Below are positions 14,577 through 38,984 of a stretch of DNA of 64,000 nt, piece after piece. A program made the translations under genes and the position numbers. Positions within the stretch are counted from its first letter, which is position 1. Each line of letters starts with the position of its first letter. Origin of the DNA: Phreatobacter stygius. Lineage in GTDB: Bacteria; Pseudomonadota; Alphaproteobacteria; Rhizobiales; Phreatobacteraceae. The stretch lies in assembly GCF_005144885.1 (NCBI RefSeq), contig NZ_CP039690.1, forward strand, positions 7,056,873 to 7,120,872, given 5' to 3'. Under the pieces are notes generated by a model. It was given only the letters and a program-made list of their open reading frames with translations. It had not been told where the DNA came from and did not search any database.

Positions 14577-15566
14577 TCAGCCGCGCAGGTTGAGGCCTTC
14601 GACCTGGCTCTTCATCTCGTCGAAGGTCTTGCGGACGAAGGCCTCGTAGGTTGCCGTGTCCATATAGTCGACCTCCTGGTCGAGCTGCGCCATGACGCGC
14701 AGGTGATCCGGGTCCTCGATGCCCTTCTTGAAGGCGTCGTGCAGGATCTTGACCACGCCCGGGTCCATGCCTTTCGGCCCGGCCAGGCCAAAGGGCGAGT
14801 TCGAGACGATGTCGATGCCGCTTTCCTGGAGGGTCGGAACGGTTGGCCAGGACTTCGTCCGGCTCTTGCCCCAGGTGCACAGGAGCCGGAGCTGCCCGCC
14901 ATTGACCAGCGGCGCCCAGCCGCTGGAATCGGCCTGCACCATGACATGGCCGCCGAGCACCGCCGCATTGGTCTCGGCCGCGCCGCGAAACGGCACATGG
15001 GTCCACTTGATGTTCTCGCGCTTGGCGATCTCCATCATGGTGATGTGCAGCGAGGTGCCGGCGCCCGGCGTGCCATAGGTCACCTCGTCGGGCTTGGCGC
15101 GGGCGAACTCGATCAGGTCGCGCATGGTCTTGTGCGGGCTGTCGGCCCGGACCGTGACGCCGAAGCAATAACCGGCGACATGGACCACATAGCTGAAATC
15201 GGTCAGCGGGTTGAAGGTCACCCGCGTCATGTGCGGCAACCGGAACATGGTGATCGGCATCTGCGCCAGGGTATAGCCGTCGGGCTTGGCATTGGCCGCC
15301 ATCTGCGCCGGCCCGAGGGTGCCGCCGGCGCCCGGCCGGTTCTCCACCACGATCCGCTCGCCGAGATGTTTTTGCGTCGCCTCGGCGAGCGCCCGGAACC
15401 CGACATCCGACGACCCGCCGGCCGTCCACGGCACGATCAGCGTCACCGGCCTCGCCGGGAAACGCGGCTGCGCCAGCACCGCCGGTGCCGCGGCGCCCGA
15501 CAGCGCCAGGCCGGCCGACCCGGTCAATATCGTCCGTCGCGACGGAATCCAGACTTTCGTGGACAT
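14577..15566 (-). CDS. tctC: Tripartite tricarboxylate transporter substrate-binding protein TctC
   Basis: Periplasmic Bug-family receptor of 329 residues that delivers a carboxylate to TctAB. The N-terminus (IPSRRTILTGSAGLALSG, ending AVLAQ) looks like a Tat signal. The mature part begins FPARPVTLIVPWTAGGSSDV, the Bug signature, followed by VENRPGAGGTLGPAQMA and VTYGTPGAGTSLHITMME. ATG 15566 has GGAGGAAG 8 bases upstream. It heads the tctCBA operon, with a candidate promoter about 85 bases upstream and a cupin gene divergent. Confidence 0.94.
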   Translation of the reverse strand: MSTKVWIPSRRTILTGSAGLALSGAAAPAVLAQPRFPARPVTLIVPWTAGGSSDVGFRALAEATQKHLGERIVVENRPGAGGTLGPAQMAANAKPDGYTLAQMPITMFRLPHMTRVTFNPLTDFSYVVHVAGYCFGVTVRADSPHKTMRDLIEFARAKPDEVTYGTPGAGTSLHITMMEIAKRENIKWTHVPFRGAAETNAAVLGGHVMVQADSSGWAPLVNGGQLRLLCTWGKSRTKSWPTVPTLQESGIDIVSNSPFGLAGPKGMDPGVVKILHDAFKKGIEDPDHLRVMAQLDQEVDYMDTATYEAFVRKTFDEMKSQVEGLNLRG

Positions 15567-15649
15567 GGGGCGCTTCCTCCTCGATGCGCTGAAAACAAGC
15601 CAACGGTCTTGATGCCGTCCGGGCGGAGCTTTGGTCCGCATTTTTGACG

Positions 15650-15678
15650 AGTAGACAGTGCCGCCGGGCACTCTTCAA
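15650..15678 (-). promoter_or_regulatory. Candidate promoter of tctCBA
   Basis: TTGAAG-N17-TCTACT on the minus strand, about 85 bases upstream of the tctC start. Four of six positions match consensus in each hexamer. Visual call. Confidence 0.4.
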
Positions 15679-15795
15679 GTGCGGCAATCGCCGCGGCGCC
15701 CCGGCCGCCGCGCTAATCATAACGGCAGTCGCGGGTTGCCCGCGGACGGGCCTTGCGGTTTGATCCGGCCCGGACACATGCGAGGGGAGAATATC

Positions 15796-16251
15796 ATGCA
15801 GCCGATGACCGCTGGGGTCACCAAGGCCGGCACCGGGATCGACGGGATCGTCTGGAACATCATGGGCCAGACCTATGTGCCGAAACAGCTGAGCGAGGGC
15901 TCGCTGTCATGGCACGCGACCTTCCCGCCGGGCACCTTCGTGCCGCCGCATATCCATCCGACCCAGGACGAGTTCATCTATATGCTCGAGGGCCGGCTCG
16001 ACCTGGTGCTGGAAGGCCGGGATTTCGCCGCCACATCAGGCGACGTCATCCGGCTGCCGATGGGCCAGGCCCACGGCATTTTCAACAAGAGCGACCAGAC
16101 GGTGAAATGTTTCTTCTGGGTCACCCCGACGCGCAAGCTCTACGACCTGTTCTGGGGCATCCATTCGCTGCCCGAGCAGACGCCCGAGGCGGTCGTCGCG
16201 ATCTCGGCCAAGCATGAAGTGGTGTTCCTGCCGCCGCCTCCGGGGGCGTGA
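15796..16251 (+). CDS. Cupin-domain protein
   Basis: The 151-residue protein is a single-domain cupin. Motif 1 appears as PPHIHPTQDEFIYMLEG, supplying two His and a Glu to a metal site, and motif 2 as GDVIRLPMGQAHGIFN, supplying the last His. ATG 15796 is preceded by GAGGGGAG; an ATG six codons earlier has no ribosome-binding site. It is divergent from tctCBA, so a role as a small dioxygenase, isomerase or sensor in the same carboxylate pathway is plausible but not shown. Confidence 0.88.
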   Translation: MQPMTAGVTKAGTGIDGIVWNIMGQTYVPKQLSEGSLSWHATFPPGTFVPPHIHPTQDEFIYMLEGRLDLVLEGRDFAATSGDVIRLPMGQAHGIFNKSDQTVKCFFWVTPTRKLYDLFWGIHSLPEQTPEAVVAISAKHEVVFLPPPPGA

Positions 16252-16316
16252 GCTGGTCGAAGCTCCGACACGGCTGGCCGATTCACGTCTGTTGCGAAAG
16301 CCGACCTCATCGGGAT

Positions 16317-16368
16317 GCCGCCGACCTCCCCCCGGCGGGGGGAGGTCGGCGCTTTAGCGCCGGGAGAG
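16317..16368. repeat. Dispersed palindromic repeat, copy 2 (interrupted by the IS)
   Basis: GCCGACCTCCCCCCGGCGGG, GGAGGTCGGCGC and GCGCCGGGAGAG, nearly the same modules as copy 4 at 22751. In copy 4 the text continues GGTGAA; here it stops at GGGAGAG where the IS110 element begins, and AGGGTGAA reappears at 17445. Confidence 0.65.
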
Positions 16369-17446
16369 CATCTGTGTTTCGGGTCAAGCCTGTTTTGGAG
16401 CGTGAGTGGCCCAAGTGCGGTCCTGAGCGATAAGGGTGTTGGCGAGGACGACGAGCTTTCGAGCCACGGCGATGAGGGCGCATTTGGGCTTCTTGCCCTT
16501 GGCGATCAGGCGGTCGTGGAAACTTTTCATGTCGACGTTGCAGCGCGTGGCCGAGAGCGCCGCCAGGTAGAGAACGCGGCGCACCCGGGAGCGTCCGCCC
16601 CAGATGACGCGGACGCCCTGTCGTTCACCCGAATCATCGGCGATCGGGGCTAGTCCCGCCAACAGGCTGATCTGTTTGATGTTGCAGGTCCCCAGCTCGG
16701 TCAGGGCGGCCACCAGGGTCGTGGCGACCGCCGGGCCGAACGAAGGGATCGAGATCAGAATGTCGTGGCGTCTGGCCAGGCATGGATCGGCCGCGATGCG
16801 TTTGGCGATCTCGCCGGCGATGGCTTCGATAGCCTTGGCGATCCGGGTGAGACGGTGAGCGAGATGGCGGATCAGGAACTTGTCGGTGACCGCGTGCCGC
16901 TGGTTCTTGAGGGCTGTCTGTTCGTCGACGGCCGCATCGCGGGCGCTGACCAACTCATTGAGCGCATCGAGGGCTTCCGGTGCCGGCGGTCGCTGGGCCG
17001 GGTTCATGGCCCGCGCGAACAGGGCCAACACGCGGGCATCGAGCCGGTCGGTCTTGGCCAAGGTGCCCGTGGCACGCGCGAACATGCGCACGCGATAAGG
17101 ATCGACCACGGCAACCGGCACGCCCGAGGCATGCAGGCTTCGGCGAACCTGGCGGTGCCACTTGCCGGTCGCCTCGACCACGACCAGCGCCAGATCAAAG
17201 CGCTGAAGCCAGCGCTTCAACTGCCGGATGCCCAACTCGGCATTGGCAAAACGGTGGGTCTCCCCGCCGGGCAGAACGTGGATGTCGAGCCAGCTCTTGC
17301 TGACGTCGATTCCCACGGTAGACTTGCCTTCGGTCTCTTGTTTGGACGCTTCCTTGCCTTGCATACGGGACTTCCTCCCCAGCATCTGTTCAGGACAAGA
17401 GCCAGAGGACGGCCGGACCATGCTCTCCCGCGGTGCTGAGCCAAAG
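16367..17446 (-). mobile_element. IS110-family insertion sequence (proposed boundaries)
   Basis: One transposase gene fills the element. The left junction follows GCGCCGGGAG and the right junction precedes GGTGAA, joining into the sequence seen uninterrupted at 22828-22843. The dinucleotide AG (CT on the transposase strand) is present at both junctions, as expected for IS110/IS621-type recombination with a CT core. An 11-bp inverted repeat (CGGGAGAGCAT) lies at 16361 and 17420. The right boundary is uncertain: only about 80 non-coding bases lie inside it, little for a bridge RNA, and the element could extend toward 17575. Confidence 0.55.
16384..17364 (-). CDS. IS110-family transposase (DEDD recombinase)
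   Basis: Intact 326-residue recombinase. The N-terminal RuvC-like domain has the DEDD residues D20 (GIDVSK), E64 (VVVEATG), D106 and D109 (KTDRLDARVLA). The C-terminal Tnp domain contains PSFGPAVATTLVAAL, SLLAGLAPIADDSGERQG with candidate catalytic Ser245, and RRVLYLAALSATRCN. ATG 17364 has GGGAGGAAG upstream. IS110 enzymes act with a bridge RNA specifying target and donor. All key residues are present, so the protein may be active. Confidence 0.93.
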   Translation of the reverse strand: MQGKEASKQETEGKSTVGIDVSKSWLDIHVLPGGETHRFANAELGIRQLKRWLQRFDLALVVVEATGKWHRQVRRSLHASGVPVAVVDPYRVRMFARATGTLAKTDRLDARVLALFARAMNPAQRPPAPEALDALNELVSARDAAVDEQTALKNQRHAVTDKFLIRHLAHRLTRIAKAIEAIAGEIAKRIAADPCLARRHDILISIPSFGPAVATTLVAALTELGTCNIKQISLLAGLAPIADDSGERQGVRVIWGGRSRVRRVLYLAALSATRCNVDMKSFHDRLIAKGKKPKCALIAVARKLVVLANTLIAQDRTWATHAPKQA

Positions 17447-34999: not shown

Positions 35000-35335
35000 C
35001 CGCGCCTGCCGCGGCGCCTCGCCCTGCGGCCGGACGAGCCCCAAGCCCTGCCGAAAGCCTTGCCGAACGTCGCCGGGCAACCCGCGACACGGATGGCCAG
35101 ATGTCGGTGCGGCAGGCTCGCCGGTGCTTGCATCAGGTCAGGCGCAGATGGCGGGCCGCCGCACCATCAACGGTCATTGCCGTGGACCTCGATCGGCGGC
35201 GGTATCGCCGATCCTTGCGTCGCTATATCCAATAGAGCATAACGACGATGCCGGCCCCCTATCCGGCGCCAGCAGCCGCCGATGACGAAGACCTGTCCTC
35301 ATGAAGCCAGTTCGTGAAACAGAATCGAGCCTTGC
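34990..35335. other. Gap between DUF2306 operator and moeA; Mo-box but no gene
   Basis: About 345 bases. A plus-strand frame from ATG 34993 (MSTAPAAAPRPAAG) lies where a divergent repressor gene would be expected. Its Arg-rich sequence shows no helix-turn-helix and is not called. A Mo-box-like palindrome lies at 35221-35244. Confidence 0.5.
35221..35244. promoter_or_regulatory. Mo-box-like palindrome upstream of moeA
   Basis: CGCTAT-N12-ATAACG, 24 bp, with further symmetry outside (CGT on the left, ACG on the right). The reported Rhodobacter Mo-box is CGCTATATA-N6-TATATAACG, also 24 bp. It lies 91 bases upstream of the moeA start. Two sites of the same layout occur at 38716 and 38828. Confidence 0.7.
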
Positions 35336-36616
35336 GTGACCGATCGACGCGCCACTGCCGAAGCTTTCCACGCGGCACGCGGCGCCGGCAGCGCGGCGGC
35401 CGCCGGGCTGCTCTCGCTTGACCAGGCCTGCGCACGTGCCGCGAGCTTCGTGCGTCCGATCCCGGACGCCGAGACGGTGCCCTTGTCGGCGGCGGTTGGC
35501 CGCGTGCTCGCCCGCCCGCTGATGGCGCGGATCGCCATTCCGCCGTTCACCCAATCGGCGATGGACGGCTATGCCATCCTGGCCGGCCAAGGGCTCGCCG
35601 CGGGGACAGGCCTGATCGTCATCGATCGCATTCCGGCGGGGCATCCCGGCAGGCCGCTTGGCGCGGGCGAAGCCGCGCGCATCTTCACCGGCGCGCCGCT
35701 GCCTGAAGGCGCGGACGCCGTCATCATGCAGGAACATGTCCTCGGCGACGCCGGCAGGATCGTCCTCGGCCGGGAGATACGCGCCGGCGACAATGTCCGC
35801 CCTCGCGGCGAGGACATCGACCCTCCCGAGCTCATCCTTGCCAAGGGAACGCGGCTCGACCCCCGTCACATCGGCCTCATTGCGGCGCAAGGTTATTGCG
35901 ACGTGACAGTGGTCGCCCGGCCGCGCATTGCGGTCGTCTCGACCGGTGACGAACTGCGCCAGCCCGGCGACCGGCTCGCGCCGGCCACCATTTACGATTC
36001 CAACCGGTTGATGCTTCTGGCGCTGATCACCGCGGCGGGCTTCGAGGCGCGGGATGGCGGCTGGGTTCCCGACGCCCCGCAAGCCATCGCCGAACGGCTC
36101 GGGAGCCTCGCGGGTGACACCGACCTGATCGTCACGACCGGCGGCGCCTCGGCTGGCGACGAGGATCATTCGGCGACCGCGCTGACGCTCGCCGGCGGGC
36201 TTGGCGGAGCCTTGAGGATCGCCCTGAAGCCGGGCAAGCCGGCGGTCGTCGGCCGGATCGGCGCGACCGGCTATCTCGGCCTGCCCGGCAATCCGGTCGC
36301 GAGCCTCGTCACCTGGATGCTGCTGGGCCAGGCCATGACCAGCGCTCTGACCGGAGCGCGGTCGCACCGCGACCGCGGCTACCCGCTGAAAAGCCTGTCC
36401 TGGTACCGCCGGCGCCCGGGCCGGACCGAGTTCGTGCCGGCCATCCTGTCGGAAGACGCGCAAGGCCTGATCGGCATCGAGATCCTCGGGCGCGGCGGAT
36501 CGGCGCGGCTGAGACCGCTCGCCATCGCCGACGGCCTTGCCGAGATCCCGCCGCAGGCCGACGGGATCGAGCCTGGCGACGAGCTTCACTTTCACCCGTT
36601 CCGCAGCATCATCTGA
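35336..36616 (+). CDS. moeA: Molybdopterin molybdotransferase
   Basis: MoeA inserts molybdate into adenylylated molybdopterin in the last step of Moco synthesis. The 426-residue protein shows PPFTQSAMDGYAI, FTGAPLPEGADAVIMQE, RPRGEDI, the MoCF-fold strand VVSTGDELRQPGD, IYDSNRLML, TTGGASAGDEDH and LPGNPVASLVTW. The GTG start at 35336 is forced by an upstream in-frame stop. It is longer at the N-terminus than E. coli MoeA by about 20 residues. A Mo-box-like site lies upstream, and molybdenum-linked DUF2478/DUF2325 genes and a modA fragment lie downstream, convergent. Confidence 0.93.
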   Translation: MTDRRATAEAFHAARGAGSAAAAGLLSLDQACARAASFVRPIPDAETVPLSAAVGRVLARPLMARIAIPPFTQSAMDGYAILAGQGLAAGTGLIVIDRIPAGHPGRPLGAGEAARIFTGAPLPEGADAVIMQEHVLGDAGRIVLGREIRAGDNVRPRGEDIDPPELILAKGTRLDPRHIGLIAAQGYCDVTVVARPRIAVVSTGDELRQPGDRLAPATIYDSNRLMLLALITAAGFEARDGGWVPDAPQAIAERLGSLAGDTDLIVTTGGASAGDEDHSATALTLAGGLGGALRIALKPGKPAVVGRIGATGYLGLPGNPVASLVTWMLLGQAMTSALTGARSHRDRGYPLKSLSWYRRRPGRTEFVPAILSEDAQGLIGIEILGRGGSARLRPLAIADGLAEIPPQADGIEPGDELHFHPFRSII

Positions 36617-36640
36617 GGTCGGCGCGTCCAGCGATGGCGA

Positions 36641-36778
36641 TCATGCGGTCGGATGCCTCAGCGGCTCGCCGGTCTCGAGCCTCTGGCGCAGCGCGCCCGA
36701 CGGCCCGAACACCGCCTCCGCCGCCACGCCGGACAGGGTGACGAGCTCTTTCAGCGACGCGCTGAGGCTGCCGGCGCG
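36641..36778 (-). pseudogene. modA: Decayed fragment of a ModA-like molybdate-binding protein
   Basis: About 46 codons read RAGSLSASLKELV, then SGVAAEAVFGPSGALRQRLE, TGEP, LRHPTA and a stop. This matches lobe I of ModA-type proteins, where AAGSL near the N-terminus is followed by FGPSG.LR.RIE.GEP and a downstream HP. Several residues appear deleted between KELV and SGV, and again between GEP and RHP. Signal peptide and the remaining about 180 residues are missing. It lies between moeA and the DUF2478 stop. Confidence 0.6.
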
Positions 36779-36794
36779 CTGCGGCCGCCGACGA

Positions 36795-37403
36795 TCATTT
36801 GAAGCGCTCGCAGAACGTCGCGCCGGAAACCGCATCCGAGGTGGCGTCCAAGGGGCTGTTGCCGAGCGAGTGCCACCAGGCGTCGAGGCTTGGTCGATCC
36901 GGCCGGAGCTTCACCGCCAGCCCTTCGGCTCTTGCCAGCCAGTGGGGAAACAGGGCTTCGGGAACGGCGATCAGCACGGGAATATCCCGGTCGATCGCCT
37001 GGGCGAGGACATCGAGCAGCCCTGCCCCGGCCGCTTCGAGGGATCCGTAGCGGTTGAGGATCACGACATCGGGGCGCCGCTTCAACGCCAGGGACAGCCT
37101 GGCGCCAATGCCCTGCAAGGCGGTGCCGCAAGCGGCCATGTTGGATTTCCCGGCGCCATTCGCATCGCCGCGCCATCCGTCGTCGGGAACCAGGGTGAAC
37201 TCCGCCGTCCCGTCAAAGCCCGGATGATCAGGGCGGCGCCTCTGGACCACGCCGAGCGCGTCGAAACCCAGCCCCAGGAGGTGGCGAAGAAAACCCGTCA
37301 GCACCGCGTCCGGATTGTCGCCGGGGCCATAGACCATGGCGGCGACATCGCAGTCGCCATGGAACTTGGGCCTGTCGGATCGCGCGCCGGCATGTTCCGT
37401 CAT
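36795..37403 (-). CDS. DUF2478 family protein, molybdenum-locus associated
   Basis: The 202-residue soluble protein matches DUF2478, a family found beside molybdate transport genes. Features are DVAAMVYGPGDNPDAVLTGF near residue 20, LGFDALGVVQRR, then RPDVVILNRYGSLEAAGAGL and DIPVLIAVPEALFPHW. The last two resemble the Walker B region of the THEP1-type nucleotidase fold, while the Gly-rich N-terminal loop is not a complete P-loop. ATG 37403 is the family start. It follows the DUF2325 gene by 29 bases, so the two form one unit, apparently under Mo-box control. Confidence 0.82.
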   Translation of the reverse strand: MTEHAGARSDRPKFHGDCDVAAMVYGPGDNPDAVLTGFLRHLLGLGFDALGVVQRRRPDHPGFDGTAEFTLVPDDGWRGDANGAGKSNMAACGTALQGIGARLSLALKRRPDVVILNRYGSLEAAGAGLLDVLAQAIDRDIPVLIAVPEALFPHWLARAEGLAVKLRPDRPSLDAWWHSLGNSPLDATSDAVSGATFCERFK

Positions 37404-37432
37404 CGGCTTTCCCCTGGTGGTTCGCGCCGCGC

Positions 37433-38701
37433 TCAGGCGACAGCCGCCGGCCGTGCCGGCAGATCGCCCCCGGCGATCGCCGCGATGAAGCTGGCAAGGC
37501 TCGCCGTGCGCAGCGGAACGAAAGGCTTGCCGGCATCCCGGCAGAGCTTCTTCACCTGGCCCGCGGCGTGGTGGCTGATGCAATCGACCGGAAAGAAGGC
37601 CGCATCCGCCTGGCTGATCAGGCCCGGCAGCAGCGCCGCGCTGTCCTCGATCCCGCCATCATGGGCCAGCAGCACGCCGCCGCGTCCGGCCGCGAGCGCC
37701 TTCAGCTGGTCGAGCAGCTTGGGACGGCCGCCGACATAAAGCAGGGTCAGATCCGCCAGGTCCCGCGCGGCCGCTTTCGGCCCGTCCTGGTTCGGTCCGC
37801 CAAGGTGCAAGCTGGCTTCGAGGGCTGAGAGCTCGCGCTGCAGATGGGCCTCCCGCTCGATCAGCTCGGCATTGCGTTTCCGTTCGATCGCGGCCTGGTC
37901 CTCGACCTCCTTCAGGCGCGCGGCCAGGACCTGGGCATGGGCCTTCTCGGCATCGCTGCGCTGCGCCAGCGCGGCCATGGCCGCGGGCGCAAGCTGCGGA
38001 CCGGCCTTGGCCTGGTCCTGCACCGTTCGCCGCGCCGCCTCGATCTCCAGGCTTTCGATGCGCCGCAAGAGCTCGGAGCGTTCATTGGCCGCCGTCTGGA
38101 GGCGCGCCTCCTGCCGGGCGATCTTTTCGTCGCGCGCGCCGAGATCCCGTTCGAGCTTGCGCAGCCGCGCGATGTCGACCCGGTTGGAGGTACCGACCAT
38201 GTGCGACAGCATATGCACTTCGCCGAAGACCTCCTGGATCAGCGGCCGGTCGGCGGCGGGATGGGTCAGGACCGCCCAATAGGCGCCCGGAATATCGCCC
38301 TGGTCGAGCGCCTGGAGCCAGAGATCCCGCACCTCGGCCACCGTCGAGGCCCTGGTGAAACGCTTGATCGCCGTCTCGTGGCGCTTGTCGAGGGTCTTGT
38401 GCAGCAGTTTGCCCGCGAGGTCGTGCTGCCCCGCGGTGCGCACCCCCCGCCCGTGCAGGACGTGGTCGGTCGCCCCTTTCGCGTCGGCCTCGCCGAGCCT
38501 GACGAAGAACTGGCGCAGCTCCGCGGCACTCAGGCAGGTGCCGATGATCGAGCAGTGAAAATGCGAGGATATGTCCCAGATCTTCGACCGGCGATGGCCC
38601 TTGGGATCGACGGCAACGAACGGCGCCTGGCTTCGCGCCTGCTCGAGCACCGCATTGATCCCGGTCTGACGATGGAGGTGGAGGACTGTCAGGGTCGACA
38701 C
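37433..38701 (-). CDS. DUF2325 domain protein with coiled coil
   Basis: The 422-residue protein uses a GTG start at 38701. The N-terminal part has a putative metal site, SSHFHCSIIGTCLSAAEL (H47, H49, C50, C56). A long coiled coil spans about residues 175-300 (repeated ERD/EKIAR/ERSELL segments). The C-terminal DUF2325 domain shows LLYVGGRPKLLDQLKALA, LLAHDGGIEDSAALLP and FFPVDCISHHAAGQVKKLC. Two Mo-box-like palindromes lie upstream, the nearer only 14 bases from the start. Function unknown; a metal-linked sensor or chaperone is a guess. Confidence 0.82.
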   Translation of the reverse strand: MSTLTVLHLHRQTGINAVLEQARSQAPFVAVDPKGHRRSKIWDISSHFHCSIIGTCLSAAELRQFFVRLGEADAKGATDHVLHGRGVRTAGQHDLAGKLLHKTLDKRHETAIKRFTRASTVAEVRDLWLQALDQGDIPGAYWAVLTHPAADRPLIQEVFGEVHMLSHMVGTSNRVDIARLRKLERDLGARDEKIARQEARLQTAANERSELLRRIESLEIEAARRTVQDQAKAGPQLAPAAMAALAQRSDAEKAHAQVLAARLKEVEDQAAIERKRNAELIEREAHLQRELSALEASLHLGGPNQDGPKAAARDLADLTLLYVGGRPKLLDQLKALAAGRGGVLLAHDGGIEDSAALLPGLISQADAAFFPVDCISHHAAGQVKKLCRDAGKPFVPLRTASLASFIAAIAGGDLPARPAAVA

Positions 38702-38715
38702 TTGGCCACTCGTCT

Positions 38716-38739
38716 CGTTATGTTCGTACAGCTATAACG
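38716..38739. promoter_or_regulatory. Mo-box-like palindrome next to the DUF2325 start
   Basis: CGTTAT-N12-ATAACG, exactly 24 bp, ending 14 bases upstream of the GTG. Bound protein here would block transcription or initiation of the DUF2325-DUF2478 unit. Confidence 0.65.
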
Positions 38740-38827
38740 CTACCCGGCATTCCGCCTGCCCGCAACACGCCCATGGCGACAGGCGAGATCGCCGCATCCG
38801 ATCGCCTCATCCCGGTCTTGCGTCCAG

Positions 38828-38851
38828 CGCTATTCCCATTGGAGAATAACG
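38828..38851. promoter_or_regulatory. Mo-box-like palindrome, distal
   Basis: CGCTAT-N12-ATAACG, exactly 24 bp. Its centre also resembles the moeA site (CCA.T.GAG shared), 19 of 24 positions in all. It is 127 bases upstream of DUF2325 and 4 bases before a small plus-strand frame. Confidence 0.65.
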
Positions 38852-38855
38852 CGCC

Positions 38856-38984
38856 ATGATCTGTCGCGACGCCTGGCACGGCCCGCCGACGCGCGGCCGG
38901 CATTGGGAGATCACCGCGATCCCCGACATTCGCAAGCGCGCGGCGACGATGGCCGCGGATTTCATCCGGAAACTGGCGTCCTGA
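38856..38984 (+). CDS. Possible small ORF or gene remnant behind a Mo-box
   Basis: Forty-two codons starting MICRDAWHGPPTRGRH and ending AATMAADFIRKLAS. The second half has the character of a real helical protein end. There is no ribosome-binding site because the Mo-box occupies that position. It may be the fused remains of a deleted molybdenum-regulated gene. No family recognised. Confidence 0.25.
   Translation: MICRDAWHGPPTRGRHWEITAIPDIRKRAATMAADFIRKLAS

Follow-up and report, generated by a model that had tools for sequence, protein, structure and literature searches.

Candidate Mo-boxes at DUF2325 and DUF2478 genes in Phreatobacter stygius and other Alphaproteobacteria

What connects moeA with a neighboring pair of genes for DUF2325 and DUF2478 proteins in the genome of Phreatobacter stygius? 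The question is raised by a stretch of 64,000 nucleotides on contig NZ_CP039690.1 (positions 7,056,873 to 7,120,872; the window, in which positions are counted from its first letter), where a 24-bp palindrome recurs beside these genes. The molybdenum (Mo) box of ModE and of MopA/MopB is a 24-bp palindrome with CGYTAT and ATARCG ends, and it is this consensus, rather than Rhodobacter capsulatus DNA, with which the sites are compared here. From sequence comparisons we consider it likely that the sites are Mo-boxes of a ModE-type regulon and that DUF2325, together with DUF2478, is an accessory protein of Mo starvation; the two proteins of the DUF2325-DUF2478 operon would probably help cells cope with Mo shortage.

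Palindromic sites in the genome and at DUF2325 loci

Within the window, CGYTAT-N12-ATARCG matches at three places only, exactly where the earlier note had seen 24-bp sites of the CG(C/T)TAT-N12-ATAACG type, and the chance expectation is 0.00 (100 shuffles, maximum 0). Mo-box 1 (CGCTATATCCAATAGAGCATAACG, 35221-35244, plus strand) lies upstream of moeA (35336..36616, plus strand). Mo-box 2 (CGTTATAGCTGTACGAACATAACG on the minus strand, 38716-38739) precedes the DUF2325 gene (37433..38701, minus strand), which is followed by the DUF2478 gene (36795..37403, minus strand) as the second gene of the unit; the palindromic ends of this site make it match on either strand. Mo-box 3 occupies 38828-38851 on the plus strand. 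Contrary to the earlier proposal, the layout of the sites is not identical: one box stands 91 bp before the GTG of moeA, another 14 bp before the GTG of DUF2325, and the third before a divergent ATG. When scored with a weight matrix built from DUF2325 loci of other genomes only (56 of 80 loci, described below), the three sites rank first to third in the window with 29.3 (Mo-box 1), 28.9 and 18.8 (Mo-box 3); the next best position scores 2.1, and the maximum in 20 Markov surrogates of the window is 7.5.

Across the whole genome (7.35 Mb, one contig, abbreviated C1 in coordinates), the relaxed pattern CGNTAT-N12-ATANCG has 9 sites against 1 for a reversed control pattern, so that the many random occurrences that would have spoken against Mo-boxes were not seen. 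Five of the nine fit CGYTAT...ATARCG, namely the three in the window and those at C1:4341227 and C1:5151251, and all five adjoin Mo genes or the DUF2325-DUF2478 unit. The genome scan suggested in the earlier note thus leads to two further exact sites, one ending 10 bp before modA, which modC directly follows (both assigned by NCBIfam), and one (L042:5252-7257) preceding a nicotinamide adenine dinucleotide (NAD) aldehyde dehydrogenase gene and then mop. Among 20 listed sites of the genome, six score at least 18 on the matrix, comprising the five exact ones and an 11/12 site at C1:3960815 (L043:4816-5649; matrix 26.6), and the other 14 score at most 0.1. At C1:3960815 the box overlaps the earliest start codon that a TauE/SafE permease gene could use, and that gene's next ATG in frame lies 3 bp past the box.

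The same site recurs at DUF2325 genes elsewhere. Loci were collected by protein similarity alone, with an alignment of the window's DUF2325 protein and two relatives (G087 and G174) as the query, and the best 80 of 369 from a scan of named genomes were kept, 78 of them alphaproteobacterial by title. Judged by the best site between -350 and +60 of the projected DUF2325 start, 11 loci reach 12/12, 45 reach 11/12, 17 reach 10/12 and 7 stay lower; an 11- or 12-of-12 box is therefore found at the DUF2325 start in 56 of 80 loci. The reversed pattern reaches at least 11 in 2 of the 80, as do 1.9% of 2726 other 410-bp tiles from the same loci, and spacers of 7 to 17 other than 12 give 0 loci (a spacer of 6 gives 1, and one of 18 gives 3). 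Sites of at least 11 lie at a median distance of 17 bp from the DUF2325 gene as called. The 56 sites yield the matrix consensus CGTTATATTCAATTGAATATAACG, and a matrix score of at least 18 picks out 160 sites in 1.25 Mb, none of them deep within a called gene and 6 without a gene start within 250 bp; such a site stands at DUF2325 in 69 of 83 loci (in sample). Outside the sample, a DUF2325 relative is encoded on 15 plasmid or megaplasmid records, and all nine that were examined, two of them betaproteobacterial, have an upstream site scoring 28.5-41.5. These relatives include proteins from Caballeronia (39% identity) and Burkholderia (35%). A NUDIX gene stands between the site and DUF2325 in Shinella HZN7, and the Aureimonas site falls within the annotated 5' end. 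The 83 Mo-type sequences (two from one contig) form one clade with a support of 0.995 under a midpoint root, which holds 0 of 16 distant members. Judged from these comparisons, the Mo-type DUF2325 clade belongs to the Mo-box regulon.

Independent of any DUF2325 query, a stricter motif, CGYTATAT-N8-ATATARCG, was sought in 249 genomes of the order. The sites of the window fall outside so strict a pattern (0 matches in G000), which is found in 22 genomes, once in each, with its reversed control in 2. A modA-like, ModE-like, DUF2325 or aldehyde dehydrogenase match lies within 1.5 kb on either side in 16 of the 22 loci, and a further one (L184) is the site of a gene pair for a LysR protein and formate dehydrogenase (L264). 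A ModE-like gene (E 1e-10 or better) is present in 21 of the 22 genomes with the motif versus 120 of the 227 others (Fisher p 5e-5, uncorrected for relatedness). The proposal that the window sites are Mo-boxes is thus strengthened by the same motif before modA and aldehyde dehydrogenase-mop in this genome, and by its company across the order.

A ModE-like regulator and its predicted regulon

The genome also encodes the ModE homologue that such a regulon would call for, in a one-domain form accompanied by a separate Mop. A search with the ModE domain model returns one clear match, a protein of 137 residues (E 1.7e-24; next match E 3e-4) encoded at C1:4344369-4344782, approximately 1.2 kb behind modC on the opposite strand and 3 kb from modA. 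No TOBE match was found in this protein, in which only the helix-turn-helix (HTH) part is recognizable (HTH_1, 22.6 bits vs a cut-off of 26.6), and Mop, a lone TOBE domain, is the product of another gene. Having one domain where the E. coli type has two, the protein is ModE-like, not ModE. Its closest solved structure is PDB 2ijl (E 2.5e-29 over residues 26-127 of 137), a 135-residue chain of similar single-domain size that is annotated as a molybdenum-binding transcriptional repressor. The only modB above the cut-off (C1:4388071) is situated about 46 kb from modA (C1:4341261), and its 3.6-kb locus holds no Mo-box.

The neighbors of Mo-type DUF2325 genes point in the same direction. Within five genes on either side, counted in 79 of the 83 loci (in the other 4 the gene caller missed DUF2325) and named from scans of examples, the most common are a ModA-family binding protein (28 loci), an ATP-binding cassette ATPase (26), a ModE-like protein (23) and Mop (17), followed by aldehyde dehydrogenase (16), a FecCD permease (13) and a Fec-type binding protein (13). 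The ModE-like gene is the immediate upstream neighbor of DUF2325 in 15 loci, and it occurs in 39 of 40 genomes with Mo-type DUF2325, chosen from the 80 loci, versus 141 of the 249 in the order (p 3e-8). A moeA gene with a site of at least 11/12 within 300 bp is found in 5 loci, the window included. In Caballeronia the gene order is DUF2325, a confirmed ModE-like gene and a gene annotated nifQ, for whose product no NCBIfam match was found.

We propose that, when molybdate is plentiful, the one-domain ModE-like protein would bind the 24-bp palindrome and repress moeA, the DUF2325-DUF2478 operon, modA-modC and the aldehyde dehydrogenase-mop unit. Repression, rather than activation, is suggested because the boxes mostly lie within a few tens of base pairs of the start. 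Since the ModE-like protein is without a TOBE domain, the sensing of molybdate would probably take place in trans, with the separately encoded Mop as a possible mediator. Under Mo scarcity the regulon would be switched on. The DUF2325 protein would then form coiled-coil oligomers and act as an accessory protein during Mo starvation; together with DUF2478 it might help to take up scarce molybdate or to reallocate it toward MoeA. Mo-type DUF2325 would then be the Mo-linked branch of a family in which some other members lie beside genes for nickel and for heme/iron acquisition.

Several observations weigh against this reading. The 80 loci are not independent of each other, given that close species recur, some genomes contribute two loci, and one (L140) is the contig of a query member (L079); 24 of the 80 score 10/12 or less, and a threshold of 10/12 was dropped since 31 of 80 loci attain it with the reversed control as well. 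Because DUF2325 sites served to train the matrix, its scores at such sites are partly circular, a weakness that neither the spacer control nor the out-of-sample replicons share. The regulator has no Mo-binding domain and scores 88.1 bits on TIGR00637, whose curated cut-off is 98.5. Mo-type DUF2325 occurs in only 3 of the 249 genomes of the order (this one, G087 and G174), and the 9 other members of the genus in that sample yield no DUF2325 match at E 1e-10; it must therefore be dispensable for Mo metabolism. The Cys/His core of DUF2325, from which the earlier note had argued for a Mo-handling HFHC...C site, is likewise not specific to Mo. Residues H49, C50, C56, H83, H163, H167, H347, H377 and C387 are present in 99-100% of Mo-type proteins and in 75-100% of the distant members with a letter there (12-16 sequences), some of which stand beside nickel and heme genes. 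Since these relatives are without Mo-boxes, the HFHC motif is a family trait rather than a Mo trait, and a Mo-specific HFHC site was rejected. Finally, among the 26 DUF2478 loci other than the window's, just one has an 11/12 box within 1.5 kb.

This last count divides what had been claimed for the two families. For DUF2325, membership of a Mo regulon is borne out by boxes at 56 of 80 loci. For DUF2478, which is present in 25 of 289 genomes of the class at 27 places, it is borne out for operon-linked members and not for the family; MoeA accompanies 3 of the 26 other loci. The Mo-box link is consequently one of the operon-linked members, and DUF2478 would enter the regulon through a shared operon with DUF2325, from which it would be co-transcribed. 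By tblastn, DUF2478 is seen in 14 of the 80 DUF2325 loci, with several weak matches. The comparison of neighborhoods called for in the earlier note finds the arrangement again, with DUF2478 following DUF2325 in the same orientation in L098, L110 and L111, whereas in L078 and L108 a ModA-family gene stands between the two.

Mo-independent enzymes and alternative readings

Sites of the same kind are also found before enzymes that work without Mo. A matrix site of at least 18 lies within 250 bp of a gene for NAD aldehyde dehydrogenase (7 loci) or for Zn alcohol dehydrogenase (6 loci), four of each being beyond the reach of DUF2325. In 5 loci, all beyond that reach, such a site stands at a LysR gene adjoining a metal-free NAD formate dehydrogenase (named by NF005750, 695 bits vs 329), and in 2 (L101 and L109), also beyond it, at DsbD-like genes. 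An order-wide test independent of DUF2325 located this formate dehydrogenase at 31 places in 27 of the 249 genomes, and 30 loci were read. A partner LysR gene is present in 9 of the 30; 8 of the 9 have an upstream site of at least 11.5 and 6 one of at least 15.5, whereas the 21 loci without the LysR gene have no site above 12.1 anywhere. The Mo-box stands directly before the LysR gene, followed by the formate dehydrogenase gene, in L136:9305-11717, L078:2-2217, L264 and L266. This arrangement looks like a Mo-controlled swap of formate dehydrogenases. The genome of P. stygius itself has no match to this enzyme at E 1e-100. In 11 Rhizobium loci (L106, L116-L118, L120, L121, L123, L126, L127, L129 and L170) DUF2325 is followed by genes for a periplasmic-looking MsrB and a DsbD-like protein, with gaps of 68-285 bp between DUF2325 and msrB that hold no convincing box (best 9.1, in L170); DUF2325 and msrB may share an operon. 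Taken together, a switch before Mo-free isozymes suggests a Mo-sparing program.

It is possible, if rather unlikely, that the DUF2325-DUF2478 unit belongs to such a program outright and helps to replace molybdoenzymes rather than to handle Mo, an idea compatible with the regulon itself. The same operator would then switch on the NAD formate dehydrogenase, the NAD aldehyde dehydrogenase and the periplasmic MsrB-DsbD pair, and in favor of this are the LysR-linked formate dehydrogenase sites, the sites at aldehyde and Zn alcohol dehydrogenases and at DsbD-like genes beyond the reach of DUF2325, the MsrB-DsbD genes behind DUF2325 in Rhizobium, and the aldehyde dehydrogenase behind a Mo-box in the P. 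stygius genome. However, the commonest neighbors of DUF2325 are genes of Mo uptake and regulation, and Pfam recognizes no catalytic domain in the DUF2325 protein. Ten of the 11 DUF2325-msrB gaps are without a box, so that msrB may be independent, and two of the eight LysR sites (11.5 and 13.4) are barely above or below the 12.1 reached by the other formate dehydrogenase loci. Improbable, in our estimation, is a role of DUF2325 as a Mo sensor or co-regulator that oligomerizes and tunes the one-domain ModE-like protein. The ModE-like gene directly upstream of DUF2325 in 15 loci would fit such a role, as would histidines 80, 108 and 147, which are present in 99-100% of Mo-type proteins and in half or fewer of the distant members. 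Nevertheless, a ModE-like protein is encoded in 141 of the 249 genomes of the order and Mo-type DUF2325 in 3, and the regulator therefore does not generally need DUF2325; as a general ModE sensor it was rejected.

The remaining alternatives concern the palindromes themselves. Other LysR genes near some loci could mean that the sites serve a different regulator, such as a nearby LysR protein, and that the link to Mo is one of neighborhood only; this is very improbable given the same motif before modA and ModE-like genes across the order and the enrichment of ModE-like genes in the genomes that carry it. Chance is a negligible explanation, since window shuffles, the reversed pattern, position and spacer controls, matrix surrogates and the out-of-sample replicons all speak against it. 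The reading as Mo-boxes of a ModE-type regulon is thus retained. A wider version of it, put forward tentatively and with more doubt than confidence, would hold that Alphaproteobacteria and some Burkholderiales have a ModE-controlled Mo-sparing program. In it, Mo acquisition and a set of Mo-free isozymes (NAD aldehyde and Zn alcohol dehydrogenases, the periplasmic MsrB-DsbD pair and, by way of the neighboring LysR gene, NAD formate dehydrogenase) would be de-repressed alike through a one-domain ModE-like repressor that lacks a domain for Mo binding, with DUF2325-DUF2478 as a hub of Mo reallocation and a branch of a family devoted to starvation for particular metals.

The predicted regulon resembles those of ModE in E. 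coli and MopA/MopB in R. capsulatus in its mod and mop targets and its ModE-type HTH protein. It differs from them in that the regulator is a one-domain protein without TOBE, the main conserved target is a DUF2325 protein, and Mo-free isozymes lie near further sites. A precedent for a Mo-controlled switch to a Mo-free isozyme exists in the Mo repression of anfA and Fe-nitrogenase by MopA/MopB (PMC6925177); here, formate, aldehyde and possibly methionine-sulfoxide enzymes would be concerned. The Campylobacter jejuni protein Cj1384 is a DUF2325 protein of 104 residues whose gene clusters with katA and a gene for heme trafficking; it is regulated by PerR and RacRS and linked to oxidative stress (PMC9426514). 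It shares the domain with Mo-type DUF2325 but is short and under other regulators.

No link of DUF2325 or DUF2478 to Mo was seen in the full-text literature searched, a scope that leaves out most subscription papers and thus allows for a prior description elsewhere, regulon databases being one such place. Mo-boxes and ModE are known already; what would be new, as far as that search extends, is the regulon membership of the Mo-type DUF2325 clade and its linked DUF2478, along with the connection to Mo-free isozymes. Two protein families would thereby gain a physiological setting, Mo limitation, and an operator that can be tested directly. The findings raise the question of how Mo is sensed by a ModE-like repressor that has no domain to bind it, and they point to a bacterial metal-sparing response for Mo in groups including rhizobia and methylotrophs, whose growth may be limited by the supply of Mo.

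Gene products and further observations

The window's moeA product has MoeA_N, MoCF_biosynth and MoeA_C Pfam domains above their cut-offs; on the NCBIfam MoeA equivalog NF007960 it scores 339 bits, under that model's own cut-off of 440. The DUF2325 protein (422 residues; PF10087, 54.4 bits vs a cut-off of 33.6) consists of an N-terminal Cys/His part, a coiled coil and the C-terminal DUF2325 domain. All 58 relatives in the alignment match PF10087 at E up to 1, and a solved-structure search with the DUF2325 profile finds mainly coiled-coil or long-helix proteins. A viral carrier was considered and dismissed, as none of 13 pattern matches in viral contigs was a relative. The 9 other genomes of the genus, which have no DUF2325 match, measure 4.1-5.0 Mb against 7.35 Mb here, and the DUF2325 unit may therefore have been acquired.

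The DUF2478 protein (202 residues; PF10649, 95.7 bits vs a cut-off of 22.3) also matches NTPase_1 with 12.5 bits. Six of 10 aligned DUF2478 members match this model weakly at E up to 10, the best relative with E 5e-4. These matches hint at the DUF2478 fold; membership of NTPase_1 (THEP1) was not adopted, as the window protein remains below the gathering score of 23.9. A search for solved structures with the DUF2478 profile returned nothing below E 0.09. The genome has a second, canonical DUF2478 gene (L201; C1:6133426-6133905), in whose locus there is no 11/12 Mo-box; a small gene nearby presumably encodes a TusA-like protein, judging by its motif.

Directly behind Mo-box 3, a 42-codon frame (38856..38984, plus strand) begins with an ATG 4 bp from the box and appears to be a relic of a divergent gene. 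Of its codons, the 33 at 38880-38978 are 88% identical to the C-terminus (last 33 residues) of a NAD_binding_9 flavin adenine dinucleotide (FAD) protein of L098, the nearest relative, where DUF2325 is 80% identical and an intact FAD-NAD(P)-binding gene lies divergently upstream. Mo-box 3 itself falls in a stretch without alignment to L098 and may be either a second operator of the DUF2325 unit or the operator of the lost divergent gene. L098 also encodes, at 15413-16489, a ModE-type HTH in fusion with a segment that matches the C-terminal portion of the molybdopterin biosynthesis protein model NF011068. The TauE/SafE permease of P. stygius is a candidate oxyanion permease of the regulon, and an Ensifer replicon (L294) likewise has a TauE/SafE gene, adjoining DUF2325. 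One DUF2325 locus (L103), from a record named Mycobacterium sp. KBS0706, ranks among the Inquilinus loci by similarity to the query, and its name looks doubtful.

Distant DUF2325 members in the order (30-41% identity) have no Mo-box nearby, the best score being 0.8 around 18 starts and 11.5 anywhere in their loci. No metal gene was seen beside DUF2325 in loci such as L090 and L091; at some others the neighbors are nikR with cbiM, an ABM monooxygenase, ExbB or ExbD, or imelysin. In L085 (scanned) and in L086 and L088 (by similarity), the distant DUF2325 gene lies beside nikR, DUF4198 and cbiM, forming a nickel-linked branch of the family.

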